Shown here: in pieces, positions 33,952 through 40,823 of the stretch | Position numbering within the stretch: position 1 is the first letter of the stretch | Layout: each line of letters opens with the position of its first letter | Assembly (NCBI RefSeq): GCF_027625475.1 | Contig: NZ_CP115174.1 | Location: 868,001-932,000 of the forward strand | Reading direction: 5' to 3' | Origin: Sphingomonas abietis | GTDB lineage: Bacteria > Pseudomonadota > Alphaproteobacteria > Sphingomonadales > Sphingomonadaceae | DNA length: 64,000 bases | Position numbers and translations under genes: made by a program | Notes under the pieces: model-generated | The model's input: the letters and a program-made list of their open reading frames with translations, nothing else | Told to the model about the DNA's origin: nothing | The model's database searches: none

Positions 33952-34098
33952 CTGACGGTATCGGCTGACCTTGTCTCATCCCAAAATGCTCGATACCGTC
34001 AGGGACAACACAGCCTCTGACGGTATTTTTTCTTCCTTAAACACCGGAAAAGCCATGCTTTTTCGGGCGGGAGAGGTGCGTTTTCAGGCTGACGGTAT
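33952..34098. repeat. Four copies of the decamer CTGACGGTAT
   Basis: Exact copies at 33952-33961, 33993-34002 (reverse), 34017-34026 and 34089-34098. The second and third form an inverted pair. Four exact decamers in 147 bp are far beyond chance and do not occur in neighbouring chromosomal DNA that I can see. Confidence 0.75.
33993..34031 (+). terminator. Terminator-like hairpin made from two CTGACGGTAT decamers
   Basis: A perfect 10-bp stem (33993-34002 with 34017-34026), a 14-base loop and a run of T to about 34031. It could terminate transcripts leaving guaA. Confidence 0.55.
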
Positions 34099-34116
34099 TT
34101 TCATCGCGGAGATAGC

Positions 34117-34384
34117 GCTCATGGTGCAGCAGCAGCTCCACCGCGATCCACACGGCGGCGACCTGTTCGTCTTCCGCGGTCGGATCGGCTCGCTGGTGAA
34201 GATCATCTGGCACGACGGCCTGGGCATGTCGCTCTACGCCAAGCGGCTGGAGAAGGGGCGGTTCGTCTGGCCCTCGGCGAAGGACGGCGTGGTATCGCTG
34301 ACAGCCTCGCAGCTGGCCTGCCTGCTCGAGGGTATCGACTGGCGCAATCCGCAGTACAGCTGGCGTCCGGCGAGCGCCGGATAA
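34117..34384 (+). pseudogene. IS66 family TnpB (Orf2), 5'-truncated
   Basis: The C-terminal 85 or so residues of the IS66 accessory protein: RDPHGGDLFVFRGRIGSLVK, then WHDGLGMSLYAKRLEKGRF and LLEGIDWRNPQYSWRP. The usual N-terminus with the TDMRKGFDGL motif is absent and is replaced by the decamer-repeat region, so only a 3' fragment remains. There is no IS66 TnpA or TnpC nearby. The fragment ends at the point where a NERD-domain gene on the other strand is cut. Confidence 0.8.
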
Positions 34385-34590
34385 CCGAGGCGTGCGTGAG
34401 CGACGAGGAAATCGCACTCTCCGTCTTTTTCGGCGCCGAGATGATCCGTGCCCAGCCAAGGGCTGGAGTAAAACACCGTGAAGCTGTCATCGAGGGTGGC
34501 TGCCAGCTTATCGAAGACACGCACCTCAGCGCGGCGTCGACGGTCCTGCCGGATCGACACAGGTAGCTCCCTTGGCCACATCACCGCCAT
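34385..34590 (-). pseudogene. NERD (nuclease-related) domain protein, N-terminal fragment
   Basis: About 70 residues starting MAVMWPRELPVSIRQD and reading into RRAEVRVFDKLAATLDDSF and EKDGECDFLVAHARLGY, which resembles the start of NERD nuclease-like domains found on defence and helicase proteins. The EVKGG-type core that should follow is missing because the IS66 fragment begins there. Its ATG overlaps the stop of the DUF1998 fragment (TGATG), so the two were one operon. Called a fragment of a lost defence gene. Confidence 0.6.
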
Positions 34591-34913
34591 CAGGCCGGCC
34601 TCATCAGACCGTCGAAGAAACCTGTTTGCGGGCTACTTGGCAGCCCTGTCAGGAGACCGCGATCAAGATAGCTGTTGAACGACTCACAGGAGGTCTCCGG
34701 AGCAAGGACGCAGGCATGGCACGCCGAATGTGAGAACGTGGCCTGCGCGTTCATCATATCCGAAATGCACAGGGGATCTGACGAGCACCACTCGATCGCA
34801 AACAGCGCGCGCGTGAGGATTCCGGGAATCCTTTCTGCCTTTCCCTGCCGCTGAAGCCCTCCCAGCGTTCCGTCGGAGTCGGGAGTTGCTGTGTAGATCA
34901 GGACGCCTGCCAT
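34590..34913 (-). pseudogene. DUF1998 (DrmB-like) protein, C-terminal fragment
   Basis: 107 codons from MAGVLIYTATPDSDGTLGG to a stop, with the family's cysteine motifs WCSSDPLC and ACHACVLAPETSCE, as in the C-terminal metal-binding region of DUF1998 proteins (DrmB of DISARM, MrfA, DruE). The preceding part of the same protein is not upstream on this strand; it is found inverted at 34911-35003. The N-terminal bulk is gone. Which DUF1998 system it came from cannot be decided. Confidence 0.7.
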
Positions 34914-35003
34914 GCCCTCATGCGTCAGCTGACGCTTGAATGCGGATATTCGAGCGCATCGCTTCAGGAGCGCATCTACGCGGCGACAGGCGATGACCCC
35001 ATG
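34911..35003 (+). pseudogene. Inverted internal piece of the DUF1998 gene
   Basis: On the plus strand this reads HALMRQLTLECGY followed by SSASLQERIYAATGDDPM, the DUF1998 segment that normally directly precedes MAGVLIYT. Both ends carry the palindrome CATG (34911-34914 and 35000-35003). Flipping the interval between them would join DDPM to AGVLIYT in frame on the minus strand. The reading frame stops nine bases after the junction in the present arrangement. Confidence 0.65.
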
Positions 35004-35014
35004 AGTGTGTAGCG

Positions 35015-35041
35015 CATGATCCCGGCCGCGTCATGATCCCG
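35015..35041. repeat. Direct repeat CATGATCCCG at the trbB/DUF1998 junction
   Basis: Two exact copies at 35015-35024 and 35032-35041, 17 bp apart, exactly where trbB coding similarity stops. A likely footprint of illegitimate recombination. Confidence 0.5.
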
Positions 35042-35433
35042 CGATCGACATAGTCGTCGAGCGTGAAGATCGCGACCGCGGGTTTCCGGATAGCAAACGC
35101 CGGCGCGGCCACGACCGGGGGGATCAGGCCCTCGAAGCGCTCGCCGGTCCCGGGAAGCTCAGCCGAAACCCGCGGGGCGTGGGCATGCACCTCGGCGCCG
35201 ACATGATGGGCAACCAGCCGGATGATGCGCTCGCCATCGGACGAAGAAAGGCTCGTCCCGGTATCGACCAGACCCTGTCCGAGCCGGTCGATCCACAGCC
35301 GGCCGTCCGGATTGAGCATGACCTCGACCACCGCCGGCTCGGCGAGGAACCCCGCGATCGCTGGCCCGAGCGCAGTGCGGAGCATTCTCGCACCTCGCTG
35401 CAGCGCTTCTGTACGGAGCGGCTCGACCGACAC
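35028..35433 (-). pseudogene. trbB: Conjugal transfer ATPase TrbB, N-terminal fragment
   Basis: About 135 N-terminal residues of the VirB11-type ATPase of mating-pair formation. Recognised by [52 protein letters not shown] and [21 protein letters not shown] full protein is about 320 residues; the Walker A and B motifs are missing because similarity ends after RGIMT. The start is a GTG. No trbC or other trb genes follow. Confidence 0.85.
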
Positions 35434-35733: not shown

Positions 35734-38265
35734 CTATCTACGTGCGCGGGCTCGAACTCTAACCGCCGTACGAATGTCATGTAGATCGACGCGTTGCGTG
35801 ACGAGTTGTCTCCGCAACTCTTGAAAGATCGGTTGTGCACCTTCAGGATCTTCGATCGTCACAATAAGCGAAAACGGTACGCCTTCGGCGGGAAACTGAG
35901 CTTCCGCACGAACGATGCTCTCGACCTGTATTTGCCACTCGGTACTGCTTCCCACTCCCTCTCCAAATCGCGCCGCATAACGCTTTGTCGGCCACCATTT
36001 CAGACCGTGAGAAATGAGCGCGCGCTCTGGTGGCGTCGTTCCCGCCGACTTTGGAAGAAATGCCTGTGTGATTTGATCGTGGAAGCTGGGCAAACCATCA
36101 GAGCGATCGACTGGCTGCCGTTGCCGCAGTTTCGCGTCGAGATTAACACGGACAAACTCTGTCCCGAACGCCTGATCGATCGGCGCGTCGTAAACAAGTG
36201 TCATGCGCACATCGCCCCGACAAGCACGGGTCCCCGGATCGACAAGTGACGCAGGCCAAGCAAATGGGAAACGAAGAATGGCAGGCCGCTTTTCTCCGAT
36301 GCTAAGCCTGCTCTCAAATACCAATGTGATTGAATGATCAGCCGTTTCCAGCATTGAGGCAGCATCGCTCGGCTGCCCAAATCCGACAAACTGTCGAGAC
36401 ACGTCCTTTAAAGATCGATGAGCAAGGCATTCGGGAACGGCTGCGTTATGTATCGCAAATGCACGGAGTGTTCTGGTTTCTAGCTTCTGCTCCGTCATGG
36501 CATCGAGCGTTGCCAATGTCTTGGCGACCAAAGGCGCCGCGAAACTGGTTCCGCGTGTTTCAACGCGCGACCCGTCTTGAGCACATGAGACCAAAGCCGT
36601 TGAATTCGGCGATGCGGAATCCCCAGTGCCGCCATAGTGGGCCAAGTCTGGCTTGACCCCGACACGCAACCCCGGACCACGGCGTGAATAAGTTGCAGGG
36701 GCGCCCTCAAGATGAGTTCCGCCCGGCGGGTTCAGAGCGCCCACCGCAAGCGCGCGCACACTTTCACACGGCATGAAAATGGTATCCGGGGCGGAACGTG
36801 ACGCAAGGGCGGCAAGTGCCTGCCGTGGCGTACGCGGCCATGCGGACCGCCATTCGGCGCCACTCAAATTACCGGCAGAGTTGACGATCAAGACGCCTTG
36901 CCTGTCTTGAATTTCGTCGAGCCGAGCAGCGTAGATACTGTAAAGGTTCTGCTCAACTGGTGAAGTTATGTTTAAGGACATATTGAAGATGCGAACATTG
37001 TGATCGTCGCGGGCTTCAACAACGGCAGCTTCCAGCTCTTCGAGGAAGGCTTCGAAACCTCGCTGACCGTATGTGTCGAGAAATCTTCCCCGGGGCAGCA
37101 ACGGAATGTCAACAATGTCACAACCATCCAACTCACGACCTATCTCAGTACCGTTGTGCCCGCGAGCACCGGTCAGAATACCAGCGACTAGGGTCCCATG
37201 AGTCGGGTCACAGTCGTCGACGTCGAGATAGTCATATCGATCTCGCACCCAACCGGCGAACAGGGGGCATATACCCGTATCGATAACTCCGACCTTGGGG
37301 TATGCACCAGTTGCCACTCGGGCTGGAACTTCGAAATTGCCTGGGGCCGTTGCTGTTGGGGCATCCGAAGGCTGCAATAGAACCGGAAATCGAATGCGCC
37401 TCACGAGCGGATGAGCTGCAATGACCGTCAGAACGTGTTCGTGCCGGCTCACATCGGCATCAACATCGGCGACAGGCGGTACCAGAGATAACTCACCTCG
37501 GATCGCGCGACGATCTTCGATCAGCGGCCGTGTAGGCGCTGTGGTCACCAACAATTCAATAGATGGCACGCCACCCGGGCTTGGCAGAAGCGCAGCATAA
37601 GTCCCGTTGCCTAATTGTGCGATGTCGTGCTGGAGAGTTTCAAACGATTGACGCATTCCGAGGATGTCAGCGCTGCTCGTAACCTCGAGCGGGCGCTGTT
37701 CGAACAACTCCACGATGTAACCGCTCGCTGCAGACGGATCGAGCATTGCGTCAACCGCCGCAGCTGCTGCAAACCCGCGTTTCCCCTCGGGGGATGTAAT
37801 CTCGATGGACTCGATAGCGCCCAATTCGGAGCGGGCTCTTGTGACGTAATGATAGGGTTTGCCGGTTTTGCTCGAAATTCGCGTTTCGCCCGCAGGCTCT
37901 GCGGTCTCAAAGCGCCCACGTAGTCGCGCAATATGGATGCGCGGCATCCGGAAGAAAAGCTCTCCGGGAGCTCCAGCTCCGACGCAGGGAAACTGATCCG
38001 CGAGGAACAACGCACGGTTCGGACGATAGGATTTGGCAATCGCCTCAACACGCATACGTACGCGGACATATGTCACCGGACCAAAGCGTGATGCCGCCAG
38101 CCTCGCGTCGATCTCGTCTAAACGCGTCAGCAATGTCAGCTTGTGCTTTAAAAATGCTTGATCGTTCTTCTCGAAAAAGTCTTTGTCCGGACCCGCACGA
38201 CCGGGATCCGGAGCTCGAATGAACGAGTCGTCGTTCAGTACGATCTGGACAGGATTGTTAGGCAT
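35734..38265 (-). CDS. Subtilisin-like serine protease (S8), IetS-like partner of the AAA ATPase
   Basis: An 843-residue protein with no signal peptide, so probably cytoplasmic. A 310-residue N-terminal region precedes the S8 domain, whose triad is Asp329 (VGVIDTG), His356 (DPTHGTLVAG) and Ser574 (RGTSFAAP); the oxyanion Asn is in VNSAGN. About 240 residues follow the domain. The gene overlaps the upstream AAA ATPase gene by eight bases. This pairing matches the ietA/ietS modules known from Agrobacterium plasmids as a stability/toxicity system and listed among defence systems. All catalytic residues are present and no frameshift is seen. Confidence 0.85.
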   Translation of the reverse strand: MPNNPVQIVLNDDSFIRAPDPGRAGPDKDFFEKNDQAFLKHKLTLLTRLDEIDARLAASRFGPVTYVRVRMRVEAIAKSYRPNRALFLADQFPCVGAGAPGELFFRMPRIHIARLRGRFETAEPAGETRISSKTGKPYHYVTRARSELGAIESIEITSPEGKRGFAAAAAVDAMLDPSAASGYIVELFEQRPLEVTSSADILGMRQSFETLQHDIAQLGNGTYAALLPSPGGVPSIELLVTTAPTRPLIEDRRAIRGELSLVPPVADVDADVSRHEHVLTVIAAHPLVRRIRFPVLLQPSDAPTATAPGNFEVPARVATGAYPKVGVIDTGICPLFAGWVRDRYDYLDVDDCDPTHGTLVAGILTGARGHNGTEIGRELDGCDIVDIPLLPRGRFLDTYGQRGFEAFLEELEAAVVEARDDHNVRIFNMSLNITSPVEQNLYSIYAARLDEIQDRQGVLIVNSAGNLSGAEWRSAWPRTPRQALAALASRSAPDTIFMPCESVRALAVGALNPPGGTHLEGAPATYSRRGPGLRVGVKPDLAHYGGTGDSASPNSTALVSCAQDGSRVETRGTSFAAPLVAKTLATLDAMTEQKLETRTLRAFAIHNAAVPECLAHRSLKDVSRQFVGFGQPSDAASMLETADHSITLVFESRLSIGEKRPAILRFPFAWPASLVDPGTRACRGDVRMTLVYDAPIDQAFGTEFVRVNLDAKLRQRQPVDRSDGLPSFHDQITQAFLPKSAGTTPPERALISHGLKWWPTKRYAARFGEGVGSSTEWQIQVESIVRAEAQFPAEGVPFSLIVTIEDPEGAQPIFQELRRQLVTQRVDLHDIRTAVRVRARARR

Positions 38266-39475
38266 CAGCGGTCCTCACAGCCGTCTTCTCATCCGATGCC
38301 CATTCACCGGACCATCTCGATATTTTACTCTGACTGCAGTCGAACATTTGCGCGAGACTATCCTGTCTAATGCCCAAGTCGGCATGAAGAACCTCGCCGA
38401 TGAACTTCGGCTCATTTACTAAAAATAGACGGGCCGGTCCCATGTCGGAATCTTCTATTCCCAAGCGCGGAAGCAAAGTTTTTGTGGCTAGCGTGATAGC
38501 GCGTGGCGTCGCCTCACTTCCTGACAATGCAAGGCTACGACGCAGAGCATCGGCGAACGTTTTCAAGTCGGAGCCGGAACGGGGGCCGGCGACATAGCTA
38601 AGCGTTTTTATAACGTCGTCGCCCAGCTCGAGCGATCCTAGGAACGTACGCAGCATTTCTAATCTTGTCGGCAGATCAGGCTGTCCAATCCGAACGTGAT
38701 TCTGAAAACGCCGCCAAACGGCTGGATCCAAAAGACCCTCATGATTTGTAATTGCTATGGTAAGACCTTTATTAGCCCGAGCATCCAAATTCTGTAGTAG
38801 AGTATTTACTACTCGCTTAAGCTCTCCCAGTTCATGGGGATCATCTCGCATCTTCGCCAATGCATCGAACTCATCCAAAATGAGTACGCACCGATATCGG
38901 TTCGCGAAATCGAAAAGATTTGCGATATTTCGCGCGGTCGTCCCCAAAAATGAGCTGACAAGACCGTCAATGCGAGCGTTTACGACCGGTAAGTTGAGCT
39001 TGGCGGCAAGCGTGAGGGCTGCGAGAGTCTTTCCTGTGCCAGGGGGGCCGTAGAACAAGCAAGATCGGGAGGGCTCCACGCCAAGCGCTTTCAGAGCTTC
39101 TGCATTTTGCCATTCCGAAACCAATGCCCCCATCGCCAACTGGAGCGTTTCATCGAAAATGGGCGACGGTTGGCCGGCGCTCGGCGCCAGCAGGATCTCC
39201 GCGAGCGGAACGCTTGTCTCTCGATCGACCGGCGGATGCACATTGCCGGTCAACTCGTCGCCGACAACCAGCGAGCGTGATACCTCAACGTTGCTAGGAG
39301 CCAGCGATACATCGCTGGTGACGTTCGCGAGCAATGCGCTCAGCGTCGCAGCGTCACGCTCGTCGCCAGCCTTCGTCAACCGGTCGCGTAAACGTTCGAC
39401 CTGCTTCCTGAATCGACCATCACCGTTTTCCAGGCCGATCCTGCACAAACTCTGGATCGCCGAAAAATGCTCCAT
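38258..39475 (-). CDS. AAA+ ATPase with C-terminal helix-turn-helix, IetA-like
   Basis: A 405-residue AAA+ protein. An N-terminal helical region of about 100 residues precedes the ATPase core: Walker A GPPGTGKT (143-150), pore-like region SSFLGTTARN, Walker B LILDEFDAL (198-206), sensor 1 AITNHEG and an arginine-finger candidate in VWRRFQNHV. Residues 370-389 (RQDSLAQMFDCSQSKISRWS) look like a helix-turn-helix, so the protein may also bind DNA. The ribosome-binding site GGAGGT is eight bases before the ATG. It is co-transcribed with the protease; by analogy it may deliver or restrain substrates for it. Confidence 0.85.
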   Translation of the reverse strand: MEHFSAIQSLCRIGLENGDGRFRKQVERLRDRLTKAGDERDAATLSALLANVTSDVSLAPSNVEVSRSLVVGDELTGNVHPPVDRETSVPLAEILLAPSAGQPSPIFDETLQLAMGALVSEWQNAEALKALGVEPSRSCLFYGPPGTGKTLAALTLAAKLNLPVVNARIDGLVSSFLGTTARNIANLFDFANRYRCVLILDEFDALAKMRDDPHELGELKRVVNTLLQNLDARANKGLTIAITNHEGLLDPAVWRRFQNHVRIGQPDLPTRLEMLRTFLGSLELGDDVIKTLSYVAGPRSGSDLKTFADALRRSLALSGSEATPRAITLATKTLLPRLGIEDSDMGPARLFLVNEPKFIGEVLHADLGIRQDSLAQMFDCSQSKISRWSGEWASDEKTAVRTADA

Positions 39476-39511
39476 AACGCCCTACCTCCGAGGAATCTCT
39501 TTATCCAAGGA

Positions 39512-39540
39512 CATATGCGACGTATCAGCCATATATGCAA
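39512..39540 (-). promoter_or_regulatory. Candidate promoter of the AAA/subtilase cassette
   Basis: On the minus strand, TTGCAT (39540-39535), a 17-bp spacer and CATATG (39517-39512). Both hexamers overlap copies of the 20-bp-spaced repeat, so a protein bound to the repeats would block this promoter. The hexamers are imperfect. Confidence 0.35.
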
Positions 39541-39578
39541 GATAATCCTTTTATATGCAGAAAGCTGGCTAGAAATGC
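39513..39578. repeat. Four hexamers spaced exactly 20 bp apart upstream of the AAA gene
   Basis: ATATGC at 39513, 39533 and 39553, and AAATGC at 39573. The last three are followed by A. The interval is exactly 20 bp each time, about two helical turns, so all copies face the same side of the DNA. They lie 38-103 bases before the ATPase start codon. Confidence 0.8.
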
Positions 39579-39615
39579 AGATAATGTCGGTCGGCGAGGC
39601 CGGCCCCGTATCTAA

Positions 39616-39867
39616 TATCGGGCGCTGCGCAAACATGTGTTCTGCCCGGAAGGGCACCTTCACCTGAAGTCCGGCGTCCTGTCGCCACTCAAGCGCTTCG
39701 CGTTCGAGCTCCGCGCGATCGTCGCGCGCCAGCCACTTCCCGGGTACGTGCTGTCACTCGAATTCGTGGTCGGACGCGAGCGCCTGGCGTTCGTGGCTGT
39801 CCCGGAGGACCCGCTCGATTTCGCCTTCCGCCGCTGGTCACCCAAGGCTGTGGATAAGCAGCGATGA
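39616..39867 (+). pseudogene. repA: Replication initiator RepA (RPA family), C-terminal fragment
   Basis: About 83 codons ending at the TGA 39865-39867. The segment SGVLSPLKRFAFELR followed by RQPLPGYVLSLE resembles the C-terminus of the plasmid/ICE initiator called replication initiator protein A. The frame is closed by TAA at 39613-39615, so the rest of the gene is absent; the AAA/subtilase cassette lies on that side. Identification rests on family memory plus the DnaA box, iterons and following DUF2840-traF order. Confidence 0.55.
39849..39857 (-). promoter_or_regulatory. DnaA box at the 3' end of repA
   Basis: TGTGGATAA is the exact reverse complement of the consensus TTATCCACA. It lies 14 bases before the first iteron. 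Confidence 0.7.
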
Positions 39868-39870
39868 CGG

Positions 39871-39937
39871 TCGTCCTATCAGGAACCGCGGGAGTCGTCC
39901 GATCGGGAACCGCCGAGTCGTCCCATCGGGAACCCGG
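39871..39937 (+). repeat. Three iteron-like direct repeats (vestigial replication origin)
   Basis: Copies start at 39871, 39895 and 39918 with the core TCGTCCNATCRGGAACC; 15 of 17 positions are invariant. Spacing is 24 and 23 bp, about two helical turns. Together with the DnaA box they look like the origin of a RepA-type replicon. Confidence 0.75.
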
Positions 39938-39996
39938 AACGCCTGTAAGCGACGGGAATCACTGCGCGAATCTGCTCCCTTCTAACAATGCTAACA

Positions 39997-40015
39997 AAGA
40001 GTCCTTCGGACTCTT
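39997..40015 (+). terminator. Hairpin downstream of repA and iterons
   Basis: A perfect 8-bp stem AAGAGTCC/GGACTCTT with a 3-base loop. Flanking GCTAAC repeats occur on both sides. No T-tract beyond TT, so termination is uncertain. Confidence 0.4.
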
Positions 40016-40035
40016 GCTAACGGACGCGCCGTTTC

Positions 40036-40185
40036 CGATCGGACGAGGCCGTGAACCTTGATCCATGTGAAGCAGCGCCCGACCACTGGCGCCATGTTCA
40101 CAACCGACTTGCTGCCGGCCTGTTGCCGCGCGCCTATCTTCCGGACCGCCATCGCGCATGGCTGCGGCGAAAGGCTGTCTCGTGA
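40036..40185 (+). pseudogene. DUF2840 family protein, C-terminal fragment
   Basis: About 49 codons reading LDPCEAAPDHWRHVHNRLAA, then PRAYLPDRHRAWLRRKA and a stop. DUF2840 proteins of IncP-like conjugative elements end in the same DHWRHVHNR segment and normally sit between parA and traF. The stop overlaps the GTG start of traF (GTGA), preserving the original operon junction. The N-terminal two thirds and parA are missing. Confidence 0.7.
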
Positions 40186-40823
40186 GACGCTGGTCGATCG
40201 TACTGGTCGGCCTGGCCGGCGTCGTCGCAGTGCTGGCACCCGCCGTGCACAGGAACCGCACACGGTTTCTCTGGAATGCGACCGCCAGCACACCGGTCGG
40301 CCTCTACCGCGTGGATCCGTTGCGGGTCATCCGGCCCGGCGTGATGATCGCTGTTCGCCCGGATCCTGCTACCGCAAAACTGGCGGCCGAGCGCCACTAT
40401 CTGCCTCTGGGTTTGCCGCTCATCAAATGGGTGGCTGCCGCGAACGGCGACCTCGTCTGTCGCACGGGCACGACAATCAGCATCAACGGCCGGGCTGTCG
40501 GCCAGGCGCGACGGCGCGACCATCTCGGCCGTCCGCTGCCCCGTTGGCAGGGATGCGTCCTGCTCGGCCACGACAGCGTCTTCGTCATGAACACCGCCGT
40601 GCCGGACAGTTTCGACGGCCGGTATTTCGGCGTGCTCCGGCGCTCCGCCATCCTTGGGCGTGCAGTCCCGGTGTGGACCGAGGCGCACAGCCGCGACCCT
40701 GGAGTATCGATTTTCTTGATGGGTAGGCCTGGCAACGGGAGGCCGTCTCTACGCACATTTTGTTGCAAACGCGTTCGCGCGGCATCCACGACGGCCTGCG
40801 GCCGGGCAACGGGCGTCGTTTAA
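40182..40823 (+). CDS. traF: TraF-like S26 signal peptidase (conjugal transfer), 3' end altered
   Basis: A serine peptidase that matures the conjugative pilin in IncP-type systems. GTG start at 40182. An N-terminal membrane segment (residues about 5-22) is followed by the catalytic Ser36 in TASTPVGLYRV and Lys82 in LPLIKWV; the box DGRYFGVLRRSAILGRAVPVW is present (positions about 40614-40676). Family members usually stop just after this VW; here the frame continues about 45 codons into decayed IS5-family sequence, so the true C-terminus is uncertain. Without pilin and trb genes it is probably without function. Confidence 0.75.
   Translation: MRRWSIVLVGLAGVVAVLAPAVHRNRTRFLWNATASTPVGLYRVDPLRVIRPGVMIAVRPDPATAKLAAERHYLPLGLPLIKWVAAANGDLVCRTGTTISINGRAVGQARRRDHLGRPLPRWQGCVLLGHDSVFVMNTAVPDSFDGRYFGVLRRSAILGRAVPVWTEAHSRDPGVSIFLMGRPGNGRPSLRTFCCKRVRAASTTACGRATGVV

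Follow-up and report, generated by a model that had tools for sequence, protein, structure and literature searches.

The ietA-ietS cassette and its neighborhood

The window, a stretch of 64,000 nucleotides of Sphingomonas abietis DNA, carries two adjacent genes on its minus strand, the ATPase gene first, with the protease frame overlapping it by 8 nt. ietA (38258..39475, minus strand) encodes an AAA+ ATPase of 405 aa, the predicted antitoxin and repressor, which matched Pfam AAA (1e-27) and PADLOC IetA (9e-140) and contains the Walker A, Walker B and WRRF motifs. ietS (35734..38265, minus strand) encodes an S8 (subtilisin-like) protease of 843 aa, the predicted toxin, which matched Pfam Peptidase_S8 (1.1e-26) and PADLOC IetS (6e-270) and has the catalytic Asp, His and Ser motifs D-T-G, H-G-T and G-T-S. 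The toxin and antitoxin roles of this pair are carried over from relatives, and the anti-phage label comes from the PADLOC and NCBI names. A profile of 14 IetA proteins gave 302 matches among solved structures in the PDB, of which the 60 best were of the p97/Cdc48/NSF/Rix7/Afg2/PAN type; neither an initiator-clade (DnaA-type) AAA+ core nor a protein named IetA was found among these 60. The genome itself has four weak AAA relatives of IetA, 32 to 34% identical.

The sequence-only reading had placed a helix-turn-helix (HTH) in the cassette. By-eye alignment puts an HTH-like segment at the C terminus of IetA, at about residues 367-392 (38300..38377, minus strand), including Arg387, and the C-terminal ends of 52 aligned IetA proteins match up with it by eye, loosely in the distant rows. 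Two of 10 scanned IetA C termini (L057 and L068) passed a Pfam HTH cut-off, whereas that of the window gave subthreshold matches only (best, Phage_CII, 0.0012). Thus, an HTH can fairly be read for the family, and less firmly for the window IetA.

A C-terminal remnant of a replication initiator (39640-39867, plus strand; Pfam RPA, 26.3 bits against a cut-off of 27) lies directly beyond the repeat array described below, and right after it come three 20-nt direct repeats (39868-39934) at spacings of 24 and 23 bp, possibly the iterons of a dead replicon. Around ietAS, at 33971-35433 and 40158-40823, are an IS66 TnpB gene, an ORF that resembles a truncated conjugation ATPase but has no Pfam match, and a gene for an S26 peptidase, presumably of the TraF kind. 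The cassette thus appears to lie within a degraded conjugative element.

A two-turn array of direct repeats precedes ietA

Copies of ATATGC at exact 20-bp intervals had been reported ahead of the two genes. We confirmed starts at 39513, 39533 and 39553, a fourth copy with one mismatch, AAATGC, at 39573, and the exact 20-bp interval between the starts at all four sites. The sense orientation of the array is the minus strand, on which the core reads GCATA(A/T), the mismatched copy becomes GCATTT, and the order is TGCATTTC - TGCATATA - TGCATATA - CGCATATG, again with starts 20 bp apart. Spanning 38-103 nt ahead of ietA, the array thus holds GCATAT three times and GCATTT once on the gene strand: site 1 (GCATTT, 39573..39578), where TGCATTT begins 104 nt before the start codon of ietA (-104), and sites 2 (39553..39558, at -84), 3 (39533..39538, at -64) and 4 (39513..39518, at -44), all GCATAT and all on the minus strand.

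ATATGC itself is not enriched in the 64-kb window (13 found, 15.6 expected), indicating that the spacing, rather than the word, is the unusual feature. Five exact 6-mer triples are equally spaced in the window at any spacing from 7 to 40, and this is the sole one at 20 or 21 bp. Three GCATAW words with 13-16 bp between them occur once in the 4.43-Mb genome, at this array, and no further copies of the triple were found elsewhere in it. The phased score of the 200 bp upstream of ietA was reached by 0 of 1000 dinucleotide shuffles. A search of plasmids found no DNA-level relatives of this upstream region. An RNA element was rejected, as 39300-40100 gave no Rfam match up to E=1.

The two-turn period recurs upstream of ietA homologs

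We then examined exact 5-mer recurrence by distance in 51 dereplicated ietA upstream regions. No word was chosen in this or the single-locus test below; the 20-21 bp period was picked after seeing the window and the first homologs, and other periods were run as controls. Recurrence at 20+21 bp was 166 against 21.4 expected, with 44 of the 51 loci contributing, and the signal continued at 41+42 bp (133 against 18.5) and 62+63 bp (72 against 16.3). Distances half a turn off were depleted or flat (15+16 bp, 12 against 22.2 expected; another pair, 21 against 23.0). By rank, the top nine distances were 42, 21, 20, 41, 83, 63, 84, 62 and 40.

Smaller excesses, each spread over 25-29 loci, occurred in the control regions: 68 against 23.2 expected at 20+21 bp in -600..-400, 61 against 26.2 at 20+21 bp in ietA codons, and 51 against 18.4 at 41+42 bp in 5' ietS. 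Coding DNA favors multiples of three, and this preference may be the source of the control excess at 21 and 42 bp; it would not account for the 31 recurrences at 20 bp in -600..-400. The controls did not reproduce the full series, as 41+42 bp gave 17 against 20.0 in -600..-400 and 17 against 24.4 in ietA codons.

Tested singly against 100 shuffles each, 42 of the 51 loci passed at 5/100 and 35 at 1/100. The corresponding controls passed at 1/100 (5/100) in 1 (5) of 51 loci for ietA codons, 3 (7) of 51 for 5' ietS and 1 (3) of 48 for -600..-400, and with nine other periods 0-6 of 51 passed at 1/100 and 1-8 at 5/100. The nine failing loci were L010, L013, L026, L034, L060, L064, L067, L068 and L069. 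Four of a further nine loci passed at 5% (L075, 4/200; L076, 10/200; L078, 0/200; L079, 7/200), as did two of a further three (L047 and L028, 0/200 each; L049 failed at 49/200), while a further single locus, L080, failed at 107/200. All loci together, 48 of 64 passed at 5% and 16 failed. The period also extends beyond Proteobacteria, since L028, with its TTGTTCTCG-like words, comes from a Chloroflexota MAG. L079 passed without an HTH-like end, next to a gene annotated as hypothetical and with no annotated S8 protease, which advises caution about the 5% level.

The 51 regions exclude near-copies of L022 (L023 and L039, of which L023 was kept in the word groups and the promoter comparison), duplicates (L001, L046 and L071, the window itself; L038, on the contig that carries L022; L051 and L052, at the positions of L032 and L030), other AAA genes of the window's own genome (L002-L005), a partial locus (L027), one only 27% identical (L029) and two with no reliable IetA start (L050 and L059). 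L070, with only 74 bp upstream, was used in the word groups and the HTH/word tree but is outside the 51. The founding pTiC58 locus was absent from the plasmid matches listed, which for one search were 60 of 548 records. The flanks of plasmid ietAS in L033, L034, L053 and L078 carry TIR, abortive-infection, SIR2 and multiubiquitin/E2 genes, as in defense islands.

Homologs without the repeats had been named in advance as evidence against the array. The proposal survived this test: most of the ietA loci examined keep the two-turn period, but part of the wider family has no clear array. In a clade assigned by identity (L064, L065, L069 and L072-L077), two of nine loci passed at 5% and none at 1%; the two were L075, which is T/G-rich, and L076, which has irregular spacings (19, 20, 19, 22). 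By eye, the regions upstream of L064, L069, L072, L073 and L077 have GTGGACGAA or its complement in common, as a variant in L069, and is perhaps a different type of operator. Among relatives of L063, L078 passed and L060 (12/100), L049 and L080 failed. L068, one of the two best HTH matches, yet shows no array (46/100). This locus is Pseudomonas phage PfAC08 (216-3130), in whose record the notes swap the names, with the ATPase as IetS and the protease as IetA.

The repeated word follows the IetA clade

The window clade (group A) comprises the window, Burkholderia dolosa (L006), Qipengyuania (L007), Novosphingobium (L008), a Rhizobium MAG (L009), a Phyllobacterium plasmid (L033) and an IMG/VR contig (L036). 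A comparison of the spacing upstream of homologous cassettes had been proposed from the sequence alone, and the closest cassettes indeed keep the array: all seven loci have 3-4 phased sites, 26 in total, spaced at 20 bp (12 times) or 21 bp (7 times). The word is tGCATAa and the mean spacing 20.4 bp. The site nearest the gene is GAATA in four of these loci, so that strictly GCA-bearing sites number 2-4 per locus.

In group B (HTH end ...QSRVSDLKKAK and alike), the word is CGATa, in up to 7 copies, with 65 sites in 12 of 13 loci (none in L013) at a mean spacing of 20.8 bp; each of the 12 fitted loci (L014, L016, L018-L026 and L034) has one empty array slot, near -66. In group C (HTH end ...DKSTVSRQLG and alike), the words are GCAaCa/GCATCR/GCACCA, in up to 8 copies, with 70 sites in 12 loci, also at 20.8 bp. 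Outside these groups, whose words, like the window-clade motif, were started by eye, we found TTTACA/TTGTCA (L063 and L078), TTGGAATT (L040), GTTGCGCA (L042 and L044) and TTTTGGTGG (L075). The three mean spacings each amount to about two turns. Between clades, therefore, the spacing is constant and the word variable (GCATAW, CGATWH, GCAHCR and others). Bradyrhizobium alone has three words, CGAT (L021 and L034), TGCA (L058) and TTTACA/TTGTCA (L078), and GCATA is common to Burkholderia (L006) and the alphaproteobacteria of the window clade, indicating that the word tracks the IetA clade and not the host.

The word was also compared with the C-terminal end of IetA. Using a tree built from the AAA part (52 rows, 324 columns), we scored the residue aligned with Arg387 against the longer phased chain, GCA or GAT. 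Of the 52 rows, 38 were scorable, with a chain of at least 3 and no tie, and 14 were unscorable. Arg went with GCA in 21 rows and another residue with GAT in 15, and the two mixed classes held one row each, Arg with GAT in L042 and another residue with GCA in L061 (Fisher, 1.6e-8). However, the tree has just two changes in either trait, which leaves two independent pairs and thus about one coordinated switch, and an independent-pairs test of the link cannot reach significance with only 2 pairs. The co-change of HTH residue and word is thus suggestive but falls short of establishing a recognition code.

Array sites interleave with promoter-like elements

The repeats had also been said to overlap the best promoter match. 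A candidate promoter, TTGCAT-N17-CATATG (39512..39540, minus strand), can be read within the array, and sites 3 and 4 overlap its candidate -35 and -10, respectively. The claim carries less weight than it was given: the candidate is weak, with 6 of 12 consensus letters, and a sigma-70 consensus scan of 39300-39800 found none above threshold.

Two other clades show a clearer arrangement. In group B, 11 of the 12 fitted loci have a TTG at an invariant position, 17 bp ahead of a TA in the CGATA site close to -45; this TA belongs to that site by construction. This -35-like TTG occupies the empty slot near -66, and the -10 lies within a site. In 8 of the 12 group C loci, a TTG lies seven nt ahead of the third-last GCA site; by eye, L030, L041 and L056 have it ahead of a later site, and L035 has none. 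TATATG-like letters often follow the TTG by 17 bp, at the next site. Both groups therefore have a conserved -35/-10-like pair interleaved with the array sites. Some sites fall within the spacer, others on the -10 or downstream, and a protein occupying the array would mask both promoter elements.

The array as a predicted autorepressor operator

Taken together, the array is likely an autorepressor operator, a reading to which we give a probability of about 0.78: the HTH of a head-to-tail IetA oligomer would read one word per protomer and shut ietA-ietS. The IetA C-terminal HTH is predicted to contact one word per protomer, with the protomers side by side and head to tail on one face of the DNA, presumably in a cooperative manner, and the oligomer would thereby close the promoter. 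With enough IetA, the operon would be off; if IetA fell, upon plasmid loss or phage attack, the operon would be derepressed and IetS unrestrained, and the derepression would either replenish the antitoxin or release the protease, much as toxin-antitoxin operons do. The array words are no palindromes but head-to-tail repeats, and AAA+ assemblies pack head to tail; such words therefore fit this packing better than they fit two-fold dimers. That IetA is the binder, that its binding represses and that its occupancy is cooperative are what we infer. A cooperative operator on one DNA face, in a self-repressing toxic cassette, had been proposed from the sequence alone, and the homologs support this proposal. 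Self-repression is supported only indirectly, by the HTH-like C terminus, the clade-specific word at constant spacing and the promoter interleaving in two clades.

The array could instead be an operator whose binder is another regulator or a host nucleoid protein, with the HTH-like end of IetA otherwise employed. The weak HTH match of the window IetA leaves room for such a binder, IetA being a predicted one. However, the word differs within Bradyrhizobium and is common to Burkholderia and alphaproteobacteria, as expected if it tracks the IetA clade, and annotated neighbors besides ietS vary between the plasmid loci examined, which makes this alternative improbable.

We consider it quite unlikely that the array serves chiefly in maintenance or incompatibility, like an iteron or centromere occupied by IetA, with secondary effects on transcription. 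With a length of about 20 bp, the direct repeats look like iterons, a replication-initiator remnant adjoins the array in the window, and pTiC58 ietAS, going by the title under which it is cited, is reportedly a stability and incompatibility determinant. Nevertheless, the period also occurs ahead of ietA on contigs of whole genomes, the promoter is interleaved with sites in two clades, and neither rep nor par genes recurred as constant neighbors in the annotated plasmid regions.

The interleaving bears equally on the direction of control. Several sites are found upstream of the -35, in a position used by activators, whereas those of groups B and C within the spacer, on the -10 and downstream suit occlusion; activation of the operon by IetA on the array thus appears still less plausible than a maintenance role. 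A coincidence of spacing, or a misreading of promoter hexamers as repeats, can be dismissed despite the lack of ATATGC enrichment in the window, given the 0/1000 shuffles, the family-wide period in homologs that already contradict chance, and the distance of 23 bp, not 20-21, between the starts of -35 and -10 hexamers that flank a 17-bp spacer.

The autorepressor reading also has a bolder form, which we regard as rather doubtful. The p97-like IetA ring may act as a DNA ruler, with one rim HTH per protomer and up to eight same-face words laid along it or wrapped round it, such that only a well-loaded assembly would shut the promoter and restrain IetS. If so, the operator would act as a counter of IetA that ties together ATP state, copy number and the release of the toxin, with a private word for each clade, and cross-recognition or titration of the array would offer a physical basis for ietAS incompatibility.

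Relation to known systems

SgiAT of SGI1, one of the closest known systems, pairs an AAA-ATPase antitoxin with a subtilisin-like toxin. PMC5006074 describes relatives of the window pair as toxin-antitoxin pairs and states that the regulation of sgiAT expression is still to be identified. A conserved operator with clade-specific words would make that question directly testable for sgiAT and ietAS. The array further suggests that a p97-type motor antitoxin doubles as a repressor that recognizes specific sequences, and it points to a candidate pairing of HTH residue with operator word. Regulated IetAS systems could be searched for by this signature, and cross-talk among IetAS copies would become predictable, which bears on the incompatibility of carrier plasmids and islands.

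The pTiC58 IetAS, the SGI1 SgiAT and the IetAS or IteAS of NCBI and PADLOC have the two protein families and the ATPase-protease order in common with the window. In the passages and listings searched on ietAS, sgiAT and AAA+ autorepression, outside the 2009 founding paper, no operator is described for ietAS, pTiC58 IetAS and SGI1 SgiAT included. This agrees with the earlier statement that no description of such an array was known for this family.

In overall design, the cassette resembles type II toxin-antitoxin operons by inference, being a small operon with an HTH-like end on the antitoxin side and sites over a candidate promoter. Type II operators are usually palindromes, whereas that of the window is a head-to-tail two-turn array and its presumed repressor a p97-like AAA+ motor. 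DnaA, in which a C-terminal HTH follows the AAA+ domain, represses its own gene through repeated non-palindromic boxes; IetA, with its HTH-like end, shares this domain order and the repeated non-palindromic boxes, but unlike DnaA it has a core of the p97/Cdc48 type, judged by the 60 best of 302 structural matches, and a protease as its partner. Iterons, parC/ParR centromeres and the heptads of the omega repressor are likewise regular direct repeats bound by an adjacently encoded protein, some of them autoregulatory, yet their proteins and repeat lengths are others and their roles are mostly in replication or partition. What appears new here is the combination of an unusual operator with an unusual repressor in a toxin-antitoxin-like operon, for which autoregulation is predicted.
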